Positions 17,084 to 22,658 of a DNA stretch of 64,000 nt are shown piece by piece. The notes beneath the pieces were generated by a model. It was given only the letters and a program-made list of their open reading frames with translations. It was not told the origin of the DNA and made no database searches. Position 1 is the stretch's first letter; each line of letters opens with the position of its first letter. The position numbers were made by a program, and so were the translations under genes. The stretch is from Acidimicrobiales bacterium (GTDB lineage: Bacteria; Actinomycetota; Acidimicrobiia; Acidimicrobiales; Bog-793), in assembly GCA_035294085.1 (NCBI GenBank), contig DATGLP010000019.1, positions 1 through 64,000 on the forward strand, read 5' to 3'.

Positions 17084-17720
17084 GCAACGATCAACTCCGG
17101 CACCCGCCGAGAGATTCCCCGCGGCGTCCGGCGTGCGGCGGGCCCGTCCCGGCGACGTCGCGCCGATCGCCGCGTCCTTGGCCCGGGCGTTCGCGCACGA
17201 CCCGGTCGCGTGCTACCTCTTCCCCGCCGCGGCGCGTCGCGAGGCCAGCCTGCGCCGATTCTTCGCGCTGCAGCTTCGGCACCACTACCTGCCCCGCGGC
17301 GAGGTCTTCACGACCGCCGAGCGAGACGCGGCCGCCCTGTGGATGCCGCCGAGCGCGGCGCCGCCGGACCTGGCCCGGCAGCTGGCCGACGTCCTCCTCC
17401 TCGCCCCCGTGCTGCGAGGGCGGCTGCTCGCTGCCCGCCAGCTGGCGCGGCTGCTGGCCGCGCACCACCCCGAAGCCCGTCACTACTACCTCGGGACGCT
17501 CGGGACCGACCCGCGCCGCCAGGGCGAAGGTCGTGGCTCGGCGCTGCTGCAGCCGGTGCTCGAGGCCTGCGATCGCTCGGGGACCGAGGCCTACCTCGAG
17601 TGCTCTCGTGCCGGAACCGTCCCCTTCTACGTCCGCCACGGCTTCCGCGTCACGGCGCAGGTGACGGCGCCGGCGGGCGGCCCGACGCTGTGGCTGATGG
17701 CACGCCGGCCACGGGCCTGA
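17082..17720 (+). CDS. GNAT-family N-acetyltransferase
   Basis: 212 aa. GNAT fold: N-terminal VRRARPGDVAPIAASLARAF, acetyl-CoA-binding motif YLGTLGTDPRRQGEGRGSALLQPVL and C-terminal AYLECSRAGTVPFYVRHGF. Substrate unknown; the shape resembles actinobacterial puromycin N-acetyltransferase-like proteins, with a small-molecule rather than protein target likely. The start is uncertain: ATG 17082 (whose codon shares bases with the divergent DsbA-like start), GTG 17076 or GTG 17133. Its last 71 bases overlap the convergent LysR gene. Confidence 0.8.
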   Translation: MQRSTPAPAERFPAASGVRRARPGDVAPIAASLARAFAHDPVACYLFPAAARREASLRRFFALQLRHHYLPRGEVFTTAERDAAALWMPPSAAPPDLARQLADVLLLAPVLRGRLLAARQLARLLAAHHPEARHYYLGTLGTDPRRQGEGRGSALLQPVLEACDRSGTEAYLECSRAGTVPFYVRHGFRVTAQVTAPAGGPTLWLMARRPRA

Positions 17721-18672
17721 GCCCGACCGCGGGCGGCTCGTGCCGGGCGCGCCCGACCTCGGTTGGGATCGGTCGGACGCCGGGTGGGGTGCGGCCCGGG
17801 TCGAGGACGACCTCGGTCAGGATGTCGAGCACCGCGCGCACGGGCGCGCCGGGCATGCCGCGGCGGCGCTGGGCGAAGCCGACGAGGCGCGGGGCGAGGC
17901 CCTCCACGGGAACGAGCGTCCAGCGCTCGCGCAGGCCCGGTGTCATCGCGCCGGAGGGAAGGATCGAGAAGCCGGAGCCCTCGAAGGTGAGCGAGGCGAT
18001 CAGCCGGAGGCTGTCCATCTCGGCTCGCGGTCGGAGGGTGACGCCGGCGGCGCGAGTGAGGGCGTCGAGGTCGTCCCGGTAGGCGCTGCCCCGCGTCGGC
18101 AGCAGCAGGGGCAGGCGAGCGAGGTCGGCGAGGCTGACTCGATCGGCCGCGGCGAGAGGGTGGTCGCTCGGCAGGACGAGGCCGAGGTCCTCCTCGAAGA
18201 GCGGCACCGTGCGCACCTCGGTACCCGAGGCGGGCAGGGCCAGCACGCCGATGTCGACCTGCCCGCTCGCCAGCTGGCTGTCGAGGCCGAGCGTCGTCGC
18301 CTCGATGAAGACGAGGTGGAGGTGAGGGTGGCGGAGAGGGACGAGGTCGAGCAGCCCGGGCACGAGCCAGCGAGCAGCGGTCCCGATGGCGCCGAGGCGC
18401 ACGGTTCCGATGACCTCGTGGCTCAGGGCCGTGACGTCCGAGCTCATCGCGTCGAGCTCGCCGATCACGCGGCGCGCTCGCGCGACGACGAGCTCGCCCG
18501 CCTCGGTGAGCTCGCCGGTGGCGCGATCGACGAGCGAGGTTCCGAGCTCTACCTCGAGCTTCTTCACGTGCGTCGAGATGTTCGACTGGACCGTGGCGAG
18601 GGCGTCAGCGGCTGCAGAGAACGACCCGTGCTCCGCGATGGCGACGATGGCGTTCAGCTGCCGGAGGTCCAT
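17650..18672 (-). CDS. LysR-family transcriptional regulator
   Basis: 340 aa. N-terminal winged helix-turn-helix MDLRQLNAIVAIAEHGSFSA followed by ATVQSNISTHVKKLEVELGT, then a periplasmic-binding-like effector domain (GTVRLGAIGTAARWLVPGLL; QVDIGVLALP). The last 45 residues are a proline/alanine-rich tail that overlaps the GNAT gene and is not part of the fold. ATG 18672 is the family start, although the frame is open 17 codons upstream. The upstream region carries GATAGCAAATATC and, divergently, the promoter of a 6C RNA; LysR regulators often control such divergent neighbours. Confidence 0.92.
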   Translation of the reverse strand: MDLRQLNAIVAIAEHGSFSAAADALATVQSNISTHVKKLEVELGTSLVDRATGELTEAGELVVARARRVIGELDAMSSDVTALSHEVIGTVRLGAIGTAARWLVPGLLDLVPLRHPHLHLVFIEATTLGLDSQLASGQVDIGVLALPASGTEVRTVPLFEEDLGLVLPSDHPLAAADRVSLADLARLPLLLPTRGSAYRDDLDALTRAAGVTLRPRAEMDSLRLIASLTFEGSGFSILPSGAMTPGLRERWTLVPVEGLAPRLVGFAQRRRGMPGAPVRAVLDILTEVVLDPGRTPPGVRPIPTEVGRARHEPPAVGLRPVAGVPSATASGRPPAPSPAP

Positions 18673-18682
18673 CGCTAAAGAC

Positions 18683-18695
18683 GATAGCAAATATC
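18683..18695. promoter_or_regulatory. Possible LysR-type binding site
   Basis: GATAGCAAATATC, an A+T-rich interrupted palindrome (GATA / TATC) with the T-N11-A character of LysR boxes, in the LysR / 6C RNA divergent region. Unusually A+T-rich for this genome. Confidence 0.35.
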
Positions 18696-18707
18696 TACCG
18701 AAACTGT

Positions 18708-18736
18708 TTGACTGATGGGCCACCAGGGCAGATACT
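18708..18736 (+). promoter_or_regulatory. Sigma-70-type promoter of 6C RNA
   Basis: TTGACT (18708-18713), a 17-base spacer, and GATACT (18731-18736). It is the best two-box promoter in the window; transcription would begin near 18743. Confidence 0.75.
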
Positions 18737-18742
18737 GGTGTC

Positions 18743-18828
18743 AGACCGCAGGCGACATCGGATCCCCCCTCCGATACCTGGCGGGATGACAGGAAGGAGC
18801 CGGATCCCCCCTCCGGCTCCTTCTTCGC
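18743..18828 (+). ncRNA. 6C RNA
   Basis: Two consecutive hairpins, each with a loop of T followed by six cytosines: stem ATCGGA/TCCGAT (18757-18775) and stem AAGGAGCCGGA/TCCGGCTCCTT (18794-18822). This is the definition of the actinobacterial 6C RNA motif, a small regulatory RNA known from Streptomyces and mycobacteria whose C-rich loops are thought to pair with G-rich ribosome binding sites of target mRNAs. A strong promoter precedes it, and the second hairpin with TTCTT doubles as terminator. The 5' end is estimated from the promoter. It is divergent from a LysR gene. Confidence 0.88.
18794..18825 (+). terminator. Terminator hairpin of 6C RNA
   Basis: 11-bp perfect stem with a 7-base loop followed by CTT. 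It can also serve the plsC transcript arriving from the other strand. Confidence 0.7.
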
Positions 18829-18883
18829 GTCTCGGACCGGAACCTAGCCGTCGCGGACCAGGGCGTGTCAAGCCGTGGCTCGA

Positions 18884-19804
18884 TCACCAGGGCTTGGCCG
18901 ACCCGCGGGGCTGTCTCGGCCGGTCGCGGCGCGCGCTCTCTGCGAGCGCCCAGGCGCGCCGCCACGCAGCGGCCTGCGGTCCGCGGAACGCCGGGGTCGT
19001 GCCGCGCGCGGCGCGCCGACGTGCCGACCACCAGTCGCTCTCGGCCTCGTCCGCCAGCGCCGCGACGGCCGCCTCGATGCGTGCCGCGAAGCGCCGGGCG
19101 TCCTCCTCACGGCCGCCTGGTGTCGGGGCGAGCGGCGAGAGCGGGGACCCGAAGCGGACCTCGACCGTTCCTGGACGCAGCGTGCCCCGGCCCTTGGGCA
19201 GGAGCGGTCGCACCCCCTTCAGGTGGATCGGGACGACGGGCACGCCGCAGCGCTTCGCGAGGTAGGCAGCGCCGCCGCGGAACTCCTGGCCCCAGCCGTC
19301 GGGGCTGCGACCTCCCTCCGGGAAGATGACGAGGCTCCAGCCCTCGCCGAGCAGCTCGGCGGCGAGGTCGGCGCTCCTGCGGTTCACCTTCGTGCGCTCC
19401 ATCGGGATGGTCCCGAGCAGCAGCGGCCACAGGCGTGCCTTCCAGGCCCGGTCGAAGAAGTAGTCGGCGGCCGCTGCCACGACGGCGCGATGGCGGAAGC
19501 GGGCCGGGAGCGCGCTGAGCACGATCGCGGTGTCGAGGTGGCTCGTGTGGTTCGCGGCGAAGATGACCGGGGCGCGCAGCGCCGCGAGGTGCTCGCTGCC
19601 GAGGACCTTCGGTCGGGTCGCGAGGTAGGTGAGGGGACGGGTCACGTTGTCGAGGAGGAGCGCGCGAACGAACCGAGCTGGCGGGCGGCGGCTCCACGCG
19701 GTGTCGTAGTCGACGCCGAGGTCGCGGCGCACGGGCGGGCGGGGCACGGTGCCGGGCCACGGGGGCCGGCGCACCACCGCCTCGACGCGGGCGGGGACGC
19801 GCAT
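18884..19804 (-). CDS. 1-acyl-sn-glycerol-3-phosphate acyltransferase (PlsC family)
   Basis: 306 aa. PlsC-type acyltransferase: motif I NHTSHLDTA (HX4D), motif II region GTIPMERTKVNRRS, motif III VIFPEGGRSPDGWGQ and motif IV VPVVPIHLKG. It transfers an acyl chain to a lysolipid or related alcohol at the membrane. Longer N- and C-terminal extensions than classical PlsC. ATG 19804 lies two bases after the LarA-like stop, last in the five-gene operon starting at 25724. Its company (reductase, alcohol dehydrogenase) suggests a specialised lipid, not general phosphatidate synthesis. Confidence 0.88.
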   Translation of the reverse strand: MRVPARVEAVVRRPPWPGTVPRPPVRRDLGVDYDTAWSRRPPARFVRALLLDNVTRPLTYLATRPKVLGSEHLAALRAPVIFAANHTSHLDTAIVLSALPARFRHRAVVAAAADYFFDRAWKARLWPLLLGTIPMERTKVNRRSADLAAELLGEGWSLVIFPEGGRSPDGWGQEFRGGAAYLAKRCGVPVVPIHLKGVRPLLPKGRGTLRPGTVEVRFGSPLSPLAPTPGGREEDARRFAARIEAAVAALADEAESDWWSARRRAARGTTPAFRGPQAAAWRRAWALAESARRDRPRQPRGSAKPW

Positions 19805-19806
19805 GG

Positions 19807-21396
19807 TCACGTCACGTCGGCGAGGAAGAGCGGCGGCAGGTGCAGGTGGGTGATCGAGGGGTCGCGCCCGACGACGTCCTCCGCCATCTCGAGCGCGTCG
19901 GCGAGCGTGCTCGCGGGCTTGAAGCCCAGGCGGCGGACTGCCCGGCGGTCCCCGCCGACGACGATGACCTGCCCGAGGTGCTCGAGCGCGTGCGCGCACC
20001 AGTACCACATGTAGAAGGGGTGGACCCCGTGGTAGGCGTAGGACGTCCGGTACAGGTGGATGTACCACTCGTCGCGGGCGTAGGACTCCTCGAACTTCGA
20101 CTCGATCTCGAGCGGATCGGTCGTCTCGGCTAGCACCTGCTCGAAGAAGTCGATGTAGCTCGGGTGGTGCACCGGGTGGAACGCCCACGGGGTCGGGTGC
20201 GACAGGATGGCCACCCCGCCCTCGCGCACGACGGGGCGGTTGCGGTAGAGGTTGAAGAAGTACCCGAGGCCGAGGCAGGCGACGAGGATCGGGTTCATGA
20301 TCGAGTTGACGTTGTAGGGGCAGATGTAGGGGAGCCCCATAGTGACGACGTCGGTCTGGCCGCTGACGGGCACGAGCTGCTGGGCGTGGACGTTGGCGAG
20401 GGTCCGCTCGTGCACCGCCTCGACCTCGCCGGCCTGCACGGACGCGAGGGCGTGCGGGGCCCGGATCGCCTGGAAGATCTGACGGGCGAGCGCGGGAGGG
20501 GTCCGGTCGAGCGCCGCCTTCGTCGCGCTGAAGCCGGCACGGTCCACGAAGCGCCACTCCCACTCCCGTCGCTGGAGGAAGCCGAACTGCGCGGGGAACG
20601 TGTCGGTGTTGAGCGTCGTCTCGATCTGGAAGACGCGAACGCCGGCCTGCTTGATCAGACGGCCCATTCGCCAGTTCGAGTGGTGCAGCTCGGAACGGTG
20701 GAGGTCCATGAAGGAGCGGCTGTGCTGCATCGTCCGGACGTTGTGGTGGTGGCGCAGCGACCGGTAGCTGGCGAGCCCGGTGGCGACCGACTTGTGGCCG
20801 CCGTCCATCGCGACGAGGTTGATGTTGACGTACACGAGGAGGTCGCTCTCCGCGGCGCGCCGGTTGATCTCGACGTCCTCGCCCGCCTCGGTCGTGCCGA
20901 GGTGCACGAGGTTCGCCGGGTCCTCGGCGTCGTGCTGCAGGAGCAGGCCGTTCGGGGCGAACGCGTCGAAGATGCGGCTGCCGAGCGCGTGGCGGAGCTC
21001 GTCGTCGGTCATGCGCCGGTGCAGTGCGAGCGCGGCGATGAGGACGACGTCGTCGACGCCGGCCGCTGCCGCCTGGTCGAGGACCGCCTCGATGACGAGC
21101 TGGCGCACGTCCGGCGCCCGCATCGGGGGGAGCGGGAGCGAGACGTCGTCGAAGGCGATCGTGAGGCGCATCCCGGGGTGCAGGAGGGCGGACAGCGGGG
21201 GGGAGTCGCCGAGCGGGTGCTCGAGCGCCTCCCGGATCGCGGCGGCTGGGTCGCGCAGGGGGGCGACGGGCTCGGGCGGGTAGATGACCCGCGAGCCGAC
21301 GGGGAGGCGCTCGAGGCGGAAGCCCTCCCCGTGCCAGAACAGCACGGGGGGCGTCGAGCGGTCGACCTCGAGGACGAACCCCGGCCTCGGGCTCAC
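19807..21396 (-). CDS. LarA-like (lactate racemase domain, DUF2088) protein
   Basis: 529 aa. The N-terminal half follows the LarA pattern: LTIAFDDVSLPLPPMRAPDV, DDVVLIAALALHRRMTDDEL, LGTTEAGEDVEINRRAAESD, and a histidine-bearing MDGGHKSVATG segment corresponding to the metal-pincer region. LarA enzymes are racemases/epimerases using a nickel-pincer nucleotide made by LarB, LarC and LarE, none of which is in the window. The C-terminal half (VVTMGLPYICPYNVNSIMN, then FHPVHHPSYIDFFEQVL) has several histidines. Substrate unknown. GTG 21396 overlaps the alcohol dehydrogenase stop (GTGA). Confidence 0.75.
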   Translation of the reverse strand: MSPRPGFVLEVDRSTPPVLFWHGEGFRLERLPVGSRVIYPPEPVAPLRDPAAAIREALEHPLGDSPPLSALLHPGMRLTIAFDDVSLPLPPMRAPDVRQLVIEAVLDQAAAAGVDDVVLIAALALHRRMTDDELRHALGSRIFDAFAPNGLLLQHDAEDPANLVHLGTTEAGEDVEINRRAAESDLLVYVNINLVAMDGGHKSVATGLASYRSLRHHHNVRTMQHSRSFMDLHRSELHHSNWRMGRLIKQAGVRVFQIETTLNTDTFPAQFGFLQRREWEWRFVDRAGFSATKAALDRTPPALARQIFQAIRAPHALASVQAGEVEAVHERTLANVHAQQLVPVSGQTDVVTMGLPYICPYNVNSIMNPILVACLGLGYFFNLYRNRPVVREGGVAILSHPTPWAFHPVHHPSYIDFFEQVLAETTDPLEIESKFEESYARDEWYIHLYRTSYAYHGVHPFYMWYWCAHALEHLGQVIVVGGDRRAVRRLGFKPASTLADALEMAEDVVGRDPSITHLHLPPLFLADVT

Positions 21397-22658
21397 GTCC
21401 TGCCCTCTCCTTCCTCGGTGCCGATCGGGTCGGCGGTCGCGCTCCACCATCTCGTCGCCGCGTCGCGCCGCAGGTCGAACGCGACCTTCACCGCGCCGCG
21501 CCGACCGGCGTTCGCCGCGTGGCGAATGGCCTCCTCGTAGCGCTCAAGAGGGTAGCGGGCCGAGACGAGGCGGCCGAGGTCTGCCGCCTCGACGAGCTCG
21601 AGCGCGAGCTGGAAGGTGGGGCGCTCGTCGCCGGCCAGCTGCTCGGTGCCGTAGGCGTAGGTGCCCGAGAGCGTCACCTCGCGCTGCCACAGCGGCGCGA
21701 GGTCGACGTGCACCGACCCCGGCATGCCGACGAGGACGATGCGCCCCCCGGGCCGGACGACGGCGAGGCAGGCCGCGATCGACTCCGCGCTCGCCACGCA
21801 GTCGAGGACGACGTCCGCCCCGCCGGCGAGTCGCCGGACGCCACCGCTGCGACCGGCGAGGGCGAGGGAACCGGTGGACCGGCGGACCGCTCGGGCCAGC
21901 TCGCCGGGCTCGACGACGGCATCGGCGCCGAGCTGGTCGGCGAGCGAGCGCTGCACGGGGTGCTTGGCCACCGCGAGGAGGCTGGCGGGCAGGCTGAGCT
22001 GCCGGAGCGCTGCGACCGTGAGCAGGCCAAGCGTCCCCGCTCCGAGGACGACGACGTGCTCGCCCGGGGCGACGCGCGCGGCGAGCGCGGCGTGGATGGC
22101 ACACGCGGTCGGCTCGACGAGCACGGCGTCCTCGTCGCTCAGGTGGTCCGGCACGAGGTGGAGCTGGCTCTCGTGGGCGACGAGCTCCTCGGACCACCCG
22201 CCCCCGGTGTCGGCGCAGTACCCGGTCTGCAGGCCCGGCCGCAGGTGGCCGAACGCGATCCGCTCGCAGCGGCCTCGTCGTCCCGCGGCGCAGGCGCGGC
22301 ACGGCGGGTCGAGGCCGCGGACGACGCAGGACAGGACCGGCTCGAGGACGACGCGGCGGCCCGCGTCCGGACCGTCGAGGAGGTCGGCGACGACCTCGTG
22401 GCCGGGCACGAACGGGAAGCTGACGATCGGTTCGAAGTAGCGCGAGCTCGCGCCGTCGAGTGTCGTGAGGTCCGAGCCGCAGATGCCCGCGAGCCGTGGC
22501 CGCAGCCGCCGCCAGGAAGGTCCGAGCGGGCGCGGGGGGTCGACGTCGGCGAGCCGCAGCGGACCGATCCCGATGCCAGCTCCGGCGCCGGCGAGCGCAG
22601 CAGCGGCGCGTGCCGCGGCGAAGCGGTGGACGTGTCGTTCGACGAGGAGGGCCTTCAT
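21393..22658 (-). CDS. Zinc-containing alcohol dehydrogenase family protein
   Basis: 421 aa medium-chain dehydrogenase/reductase. Catalytic zinc ligands in LAGICGSD and PGHEVVADL; structural-zinc cysteines in CVVRGLDPPCRACAAGRRGRC; Rossmann segment VVVLGAGTLGLLTVAAL; VRPGGRIVLVGMPG. Residues 1-50 include an alanine/glycine-rich insertion unusual for the family. Likely oxidises or reduces an alcohol/aldehyde intermediate of the operon. ATG 22658 overlaps the reductase/HAD stop by four bases (ATGA). Confidence 0.88.
   Translation of the reverse strand: MKALLVERHVHRFAAARAAAALAGAGAGIGIGPLRLADVDPPRPLGPSWRRLRPRLAGICGSDLTTLDGASSRYFEPIVSFPFVPGHEVVADLLDGPDAGRRVVLEPVLSCVVRGLDPPCRACAAGRRGRCERIAFGHLRPGLQTGYCADTGGGWSEELVAHESQLHLVPDHLSDEDAVLVEPTACAIHAALAARVAPGEHVVVLGAGTLGLLTVAALRQLSLPASLLAVAKHPVQRSLADQLGADAVVEPGELARAVRRSTGSLALAGRSGGVRRLAGGADVVLDCVASAESIAACLAVVRPGGRIVLVGMPGSVHVDLAPLWQREVTLSGTYAYGTEQLAGDERPTFQLALELVEAADLGRLVSARYPLERYEEAIRHAANAGRRGAVKVAFDLRRDAATRWWSATADPIGTEEGEGRT

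Follow-up and report, generated by a model that had tools for sequence, protein, structure and literature searches.

The stretch of DNA shown above raises the question of what is encoded by a short intergenic region in which two cytosine-loop hairpins face a LysR-type regulator gene, and whether the regulator and the putative RNA belong together. The features of the region within the window (the whole stretch of 64,000 nucleotides that was analysed) are collected in table 1.

Table 1. Features of the intergenic region and of the divergent regulator gene, with the evidence for each (positions are those of the window).
Feature	Position	Strand	Description	Evidence
LysR-type regulator gene	17650-18672	−	340 aa, ATG at 18672 (MDLRQLNAIVAIAEHGSFSAAADALATVQSN...)	Pfam HTH_1 and LysR_substrate
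Palindromic box GATAGCAAATATC	18683-18695		GAT-N7-ATC, proposed LysR recognition site	conserved spacing; kept in orphan RNA copies
Conserved block A-N-CTGTTTGACNGAT	18702-18716	+	−35 hexamer with conserved flanks, proposed second (activation) LysR contact	position-specific conservation, 61 loci
RNA promoter	18708-18736	+	TTGACT (18708-18713), 17 nt, GATACT (18731-18736)	sequence, conservation, promoter scan
C-loop small RNA	18743-18828	+	outer stem and hairpin 1, then hairpin 2	fold, covariance model, covariation
Hairpin 1	18757-18775	+	ATCGGA-TCCCCCC-TCCGAT, nested in the stems of the 5′ domain	fold, covariation
Hairpin 2	18791-18825	+	AGGAAGGAGCCGGA-TCCCCCC-TCCGGCTCCTTCTT, terminator-like	fold, covariation

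Direct reading of the sequence between 18740 and 18828 confirmed the two hairpins reported by the first-pass annotation, both loops consisting of exactly one T followed by six C (UCCCCCC in the RNA). The 93-nt segment 18740-18832 folds with −48.8 kcal/mol (z = −4.8), a value matched by none of 200 shuffles, and the 13-mer GGATCCCCCCTCC occurs twice in the 64 kb, both times inside the RNA, against 0.33 occurrences expected with one mismatch allowed. The RNA is about 86 nt long, with a strong hairpin at its 3′ end, if its start is taken at position 18743, which is an estimate (about 7 nt past the −10 hexamer). The promoter that had been attributed to it was also borne out, being the sole sigma-70-like promoter in the 301 bases scanned (18600-18900; shuffle mean, 0.0). 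The claim that the RNA ends in a terminator stood only in part: hairpin 2 is terminator-like, but a strict U-tract is absent after it (UUCUUCGCGU) and the terminator scan gave it no score. Clearer T-tracts are found in the RNAs of relatives, e.g. at loci L057 and L065. The gene 3′ of the RNA encodes an acyltransferase (18884-19807, minus strand) and is convergent, so that the RNA stands alone, with no close gene on its own strand. Beside the acyltransferase gene lies that of an NPN-dependent hydroxyacid isomerase of the LarAH14/15/16 family (19807-21450, minus strand; NF052592, 903 bits).

The RNA belongs to a family that is not included in Rfam 15. BLASTN with the intergenic block found matches in 32 of 60 relatives, and a covariance model of the RNA alone (R1) was built from 24 sequences with a structure written by hand, because MAFFT plus RNAalifold alone recovered only hairpin 2. 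In the 81 matches realigned with R1, all 26 base pairs are changed on both sides and 91.4% of the cells pair, with a covariation score of 0.516 (shuffled, 0.178; at most 0.116 with the partner slid), the count of covarying pairs being inflated by the fitting of the alignment to the model. The changes on both sides of hairpin 2 were also seen by RNAalifold without the help of R1, and in relatives 99.6% of the cells are paired over its 12 covarying pairs. Single sequences of relatives fold unaided into the same two-domain plan; the stem sequences vary freely and the C-runs persist, the number of C-loop hairpins being one, three or four in some of them. The structure of the RNA, together with its covariation, can thus be regarded as demonstrated at the level of sequence comparison.

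It had been proposed that the element fits the actinobacterial 6C RNA, which is correct for the architecture but finds no support in the Rfam model. With 6C RNA (RF01066), which includes mycobacterial B11 (about 90-100 nt, two stem-loops with loops of six or more C, the last one terminator-like), it shares the descriptive feature of two stem-loops with at least six C, kept in most relatives; it differs in its stem sequences and in an extra outer stem (AGAC/GUCU plus CAGG/CCUG). The search with the RF01066 covariance model, suggested as a check together with the original claim, gave no match in the window or in its own genome, none in the segment 18600-18900 at E up to 10 and, with the limit set at E of 5, none in 19 loci from relatives, membership being defined by a gathering score of 47 bits. 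Across 296 genomes of the class Acidimicrobiia, RF01066 matched in two, both of family f31 and below the cut-off, and R1 in 41, with no overlap. The two former matches, the only RF01066-like ones in the class, scored 46.2 and 39.8 bits (L072 and L073, in G221 and G259, respectively), and neither locus has the LysR gene or the box. Membership of the Rfam 6C family was rejected, as there was no match at any threshold, and the RNA is termed 6C-like here.

That it is nevertheless a true, highly diverged 6C RNA missed by the model appears possible, if somewhat doubtful, and would concern its ancestry only, being compatible with the explanation favoured below. The common plan of two stem-loops with at least six C and a terminator hairpin in about 90 nt speaks for it, as does a HAD-IB gene that neighbours this RNA in relatives and 6C RNA in several mycobacteria. 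However, besides the failure of RF01066 to match, the HAD gene is situated on the opposite side and differs in orientation, for which reason this synteny was rejected as a proof of homology, and the 32 RF01066 loci contain no LysR relative, no box and no LysR-box promoter. The known 6C RNA of mycobacteria and of S. coelicolor lies one gene from Ms1 RNA (PMC9569102, PMC6582537); the Rfam scan of the whole window returned tRNAs only, and Ms1 may be too diverged for detection.

The assignment of the divergent gene to the LysR family is sound (PF00126, 63.9 bits; PF03466, 139.4 bits). Its start was set at the ATG of table 1 because relatives are conserved from residue 1, and a longer frame from a GTG at 18723 was rejected, the extension not being conserved. 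Profile matches to LysR-type structures (OxyR, CbbR-like, NtcB, BenM and CysB) extend over the full length, the best being to OxyR-type chains (E of 2e-41). No curated NCBIfam equivalog reached its cut-off (the best, CynR, 127.8 of 277 bits), and no named ortholog can be given. The protein contains no cysteine, which excludes a thiol switch of the OxyR type.

The palindromic box is separated by 10 nt from the LysR ATG downstream of it and by 12 nt from the −35 hexamer on its other side, its centre being at about −54 relative to the estimated RNA start. The GAT and ATC arms do not vary in a set of 61 loci, as their presence was the criterion for inclusion; the other conserved positions of the box region, which played no part in the choice of loci, are A −2, A/G 3, C 5, A 6 and T 9 (numbering relative to the initial G), and the conservation of A-N-CTGTTTGACNGAT extends beyond the −35 hexamer on both sides. 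Such a pattern would fit a LysR tetramer that contacts both a recognition and an activation site.

The adjacency of regulator and RNA was examined in relatives from three starting points. Among the non-self R1 loci that were fetched, 18 of 29 have a divergent LysR gene whose product is 42-70% identical to that of the window and aligned from the first residue. A search with the LysR protein led to 80 named loci, all from Acidimicrobiales or, by title, from broadly named actinobacterial metagenome-assembled genomes. The GAT-N7-ATC box was present in 71 of them, at least two C-loop hairpins in 65 and both in 62 (shuffled loci: 2.1, 3.9 and 0.15, respectively), while the 3′ flank of the LysR gene, taken as a control, yielded the box in 1 and hairpins in 2 of 76 cases. 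In 60 of the 80, exactly 10 nt lie between the box and the start of the LysR gene; R1 matches occur in 72, in two cases at a distance of about 2.4 kb from the LysR gene, the R1 seeds partly overlapping these loci; four loci (L163, L165, L182 and L183) have neither box nor RNA. Finally, of 397 genomes of the order, 98 contained the promoter pattern GAT-N7-ATC-N9-TGYTKGACNGAT and none the reversed control. At 48 distinct promoter sites, which include copies fetched as extras so that the proportions are not those of a random sample, LysR is divergent in 29, the distance being exactly 11 nt in 28 cases, and two or more C-loop hairpins follow in 33. The family is thus present in about a seventh (R1) to a quarter (promoter) of the sampled genomes.

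A divergent LysR gene with a conserved inverted repeat between it and the RNA, by which a divergent LysR-sRNA pair is recognized, is accordingly present, and the comparison of loci establishes that the link to LysR, first suspected from the window, is real and order-wide. The convergence of searches begun from different points lends support to a LysR-sRNA switch. Just 3′ of the RNA, and in the same orientation, about 36 of the 80 loci have a HAD-IB phosphatase gene (motif FDLDRTLLxGASGP; named relatives, L119-L176).

Taken together, the locus is probably a conserved LysR-sRNA switch of the Acidimicrobiales, in which LysR would act as its own repressor and as activator of the RNA, whose C-loops would block G-rich ribosome-binding sites. 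We infer that LysR would bind the GAT-N7-ATC palindrome between the genes, reaching over the −35 hexamer of the RNA promoter. The LysR gene appears to be nearly leaderless and the box falls within its own promoter region, so that binding would limit LysR itself. LysR proteins usually activate from upstream of −35, and the box would be in the position for activation toward the RNA. A small molecule bound to LysR would be the signal that turns the RNA on, and the RNA would act in trans, lowering the translation of mRNAs through pairing of its cytosine loops with their G-rich ribosome-binding regions. In Acidimicrobiales this last step is suggested by the resemblance to B11. In M. abscessus, either loop of B11/6C represses through pairing to a G-tract of the eccB4 5′ UTR, as documented by compensatory mutations (PMC10470900), and the seed of B11/6C in M. 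marinum is the terminator loop (PMC12395582). A crude scan of the window's gene starts for G-runs mostly listed unconvincing frames.

Precedents for such an arrangement are the OxyR-OxyS and GcvA-GcvB pairs, in which a LysR-type protein acts from an inverted-repeat site between the two genes as repressor of its own gene and as activator of the divergently transcribed sRNA (PMC5002191), a combination of autoregulation and RNA control that is proposed likewise for the LysR of the window. They differ in that they belong to Gammaproteobacteria, another phylum, and involve another type of RNA; in the pair of the window, the intergenic region is short, with a single clear palindrome, and the regulator lacks cysteine.

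With its fair −35 and −10 hexamers, the RNA promoter could also be active without LysR, or be repressed by it. Repression by LysR, e.g. with the RNA off until a ligand releases it, would be in keeping with these recognizable hexamers and with the overlap of the conserved block with the −35 hexamer, where bound protein could block RNA polymerase; it is considered unlikely because the palindrome lies upstream of −35, the typical place for LysR activation, and because, in divergent LysR-sRNA pairs already described, the RNA is activated (PMC5002191). Still less probable is a cis-acting role of the RNA, as leader or attenuator of a downstream gene (the HAD-IB phosphatase of many relatives), which LysR would regulate through the RNA. 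The HAD-like gene shortly downstream in part of the loci and the lack of a strict U-tract after the last hairpin agree with this reading, but 43 of the 80 loci show no HAD motif in up to 2.2 kb of sequence, there are tandem RNA copies and copies at a distance from HAD genes, and for the window this reading was rejected, the next gene being convergent.

The preferred reading, a switch acting on the RNA, depends on the box belonging to the RNA promoter, and RNA copies without an adjacent LysR gene are informative in this respect. In these copies a GAT-N7-ATC box is found nine nt before TGTTTGAC or its variant: GATGGGYGCCATC in G003 and G021, GATGGTAGATATC and GATGCTGAATATC in two tandem copies of G008 (the second seen only as a promoter, as the contig ends), GATTGAAGCTATC in G030, GATGGGAGATATC at the second RNA copy of G278 and GATGCTGTTTATC in G330. 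L029, L030, L033, L050 and the second copy of L128 were found by RNA or promoter sequence, the box not being used. The LysR ortholog, clearly separated from paralogs (above 250 versus below 175 bits), persists in G003, G021 and G330, about 2.4 kb from the RNA in the first two and on another contig in the third, with no box upstream of it in any of the three. The box thus stays with the orphan RNA copies and is missing from the LysR genes that lie apart from the RNA, and the comparison of the loci assigns it to the RNA promoter. It is highly improbable that GATA...TATC is merely the −10 region of the LysR gene promoter, kept for LysR transcription and unrelated to the RNA, as its distance of 10 nt from the LysR start and an arm resembling a −10 (TATCGT on the LysR strand) might suggest, since the whole palindrome recurs at the same spacing in the orphan RNA copies, on the strength of which this reading was rejected, is missing from the separated LysR genes and also precedes small-protein genes that have no neighbouring LysR. 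G030 (68% complete) has a LysR paralog only, and in G116 the RNA lacks the box and the genome lacks the LysR ortholog. In genus g35 (G049, G334; L215, L066, L217, L218), C-loop RNAs and the LysR ortholog are present with no recognizable box at either, and the operator may have changed.

The LysR had further been taken as a possibly dedicated regulator of the RNA. For the window's own genome (G000) this view holds at the level of the full promoter-plus-box motif, which has one site there, and a homology search found no member of the small-protein family described below, so that by motif the regulon consists of LysR plus the RNA. It does not extend to all relatives: in some genera the LysR-box promoter is also found before the genes of an unnamed protein family (131-157 aa), and in one case before a WhiB-family gene. 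The small proteins (L249-L256, L261, L262, L272, L275, L283, L285; core VEIDLNPYS..EIGLRP..Y) have no Pfam or NCBIfam match; the AlphaFold model (pLDDT 85) gave weak Bet v1/START-like hits in a structure search (E of 1.6e-3 or worse). A homology search independent of the promoter recovered further members, with the box upstream in L272, L283 and L285; the box of L275, also upstream of a small-protein gene, has one arm degraded, and L276-L278 keep TGTTGGACAGAT without a clear box. Upstream of the small-protein genes under this promoter, complementarity to the C-loop is at most 5 nt. It seems fairly likely that the core, conserved task of the LysR is to switch the 6C-like RNA, as an actinobacterial counterpart of OxyR-OxyS, with a regulon of RNA and a protein of about 140 residues in some genera.

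In the part of the literature covered, no LysR regulator of a 6C-type RNA was found described, the single paper in which both names occur having LysR only as part of LysRS, lysyl-tRNA synthetase, and the link of LysR to a 6C-like RNA is likely new. A 6C-type RNA has been connected with the GlxR network in Corynebacterium (PMC4046766); other reports on the control of these RNAs describe growth-phase dependence or no change. A co-conserved LysR with a defined palindrome is a candidate regulator of 6C-like RNA, and its ligand would be an entry point to the signal behind the RNA.

Two further sites of the LysR-box promoter were observed in relatives. At L257 (G705:C149) it precedes the WhiB-family gene (ATG at 1637; PF02467, E of 2e-10), and at L267/L075 (G032:C34) it stands before a 53-aa open reading frame (MAKTIEDLQDTETVEIVQSPVTGAKAV...) with a GGGAG ribosome-binding site.
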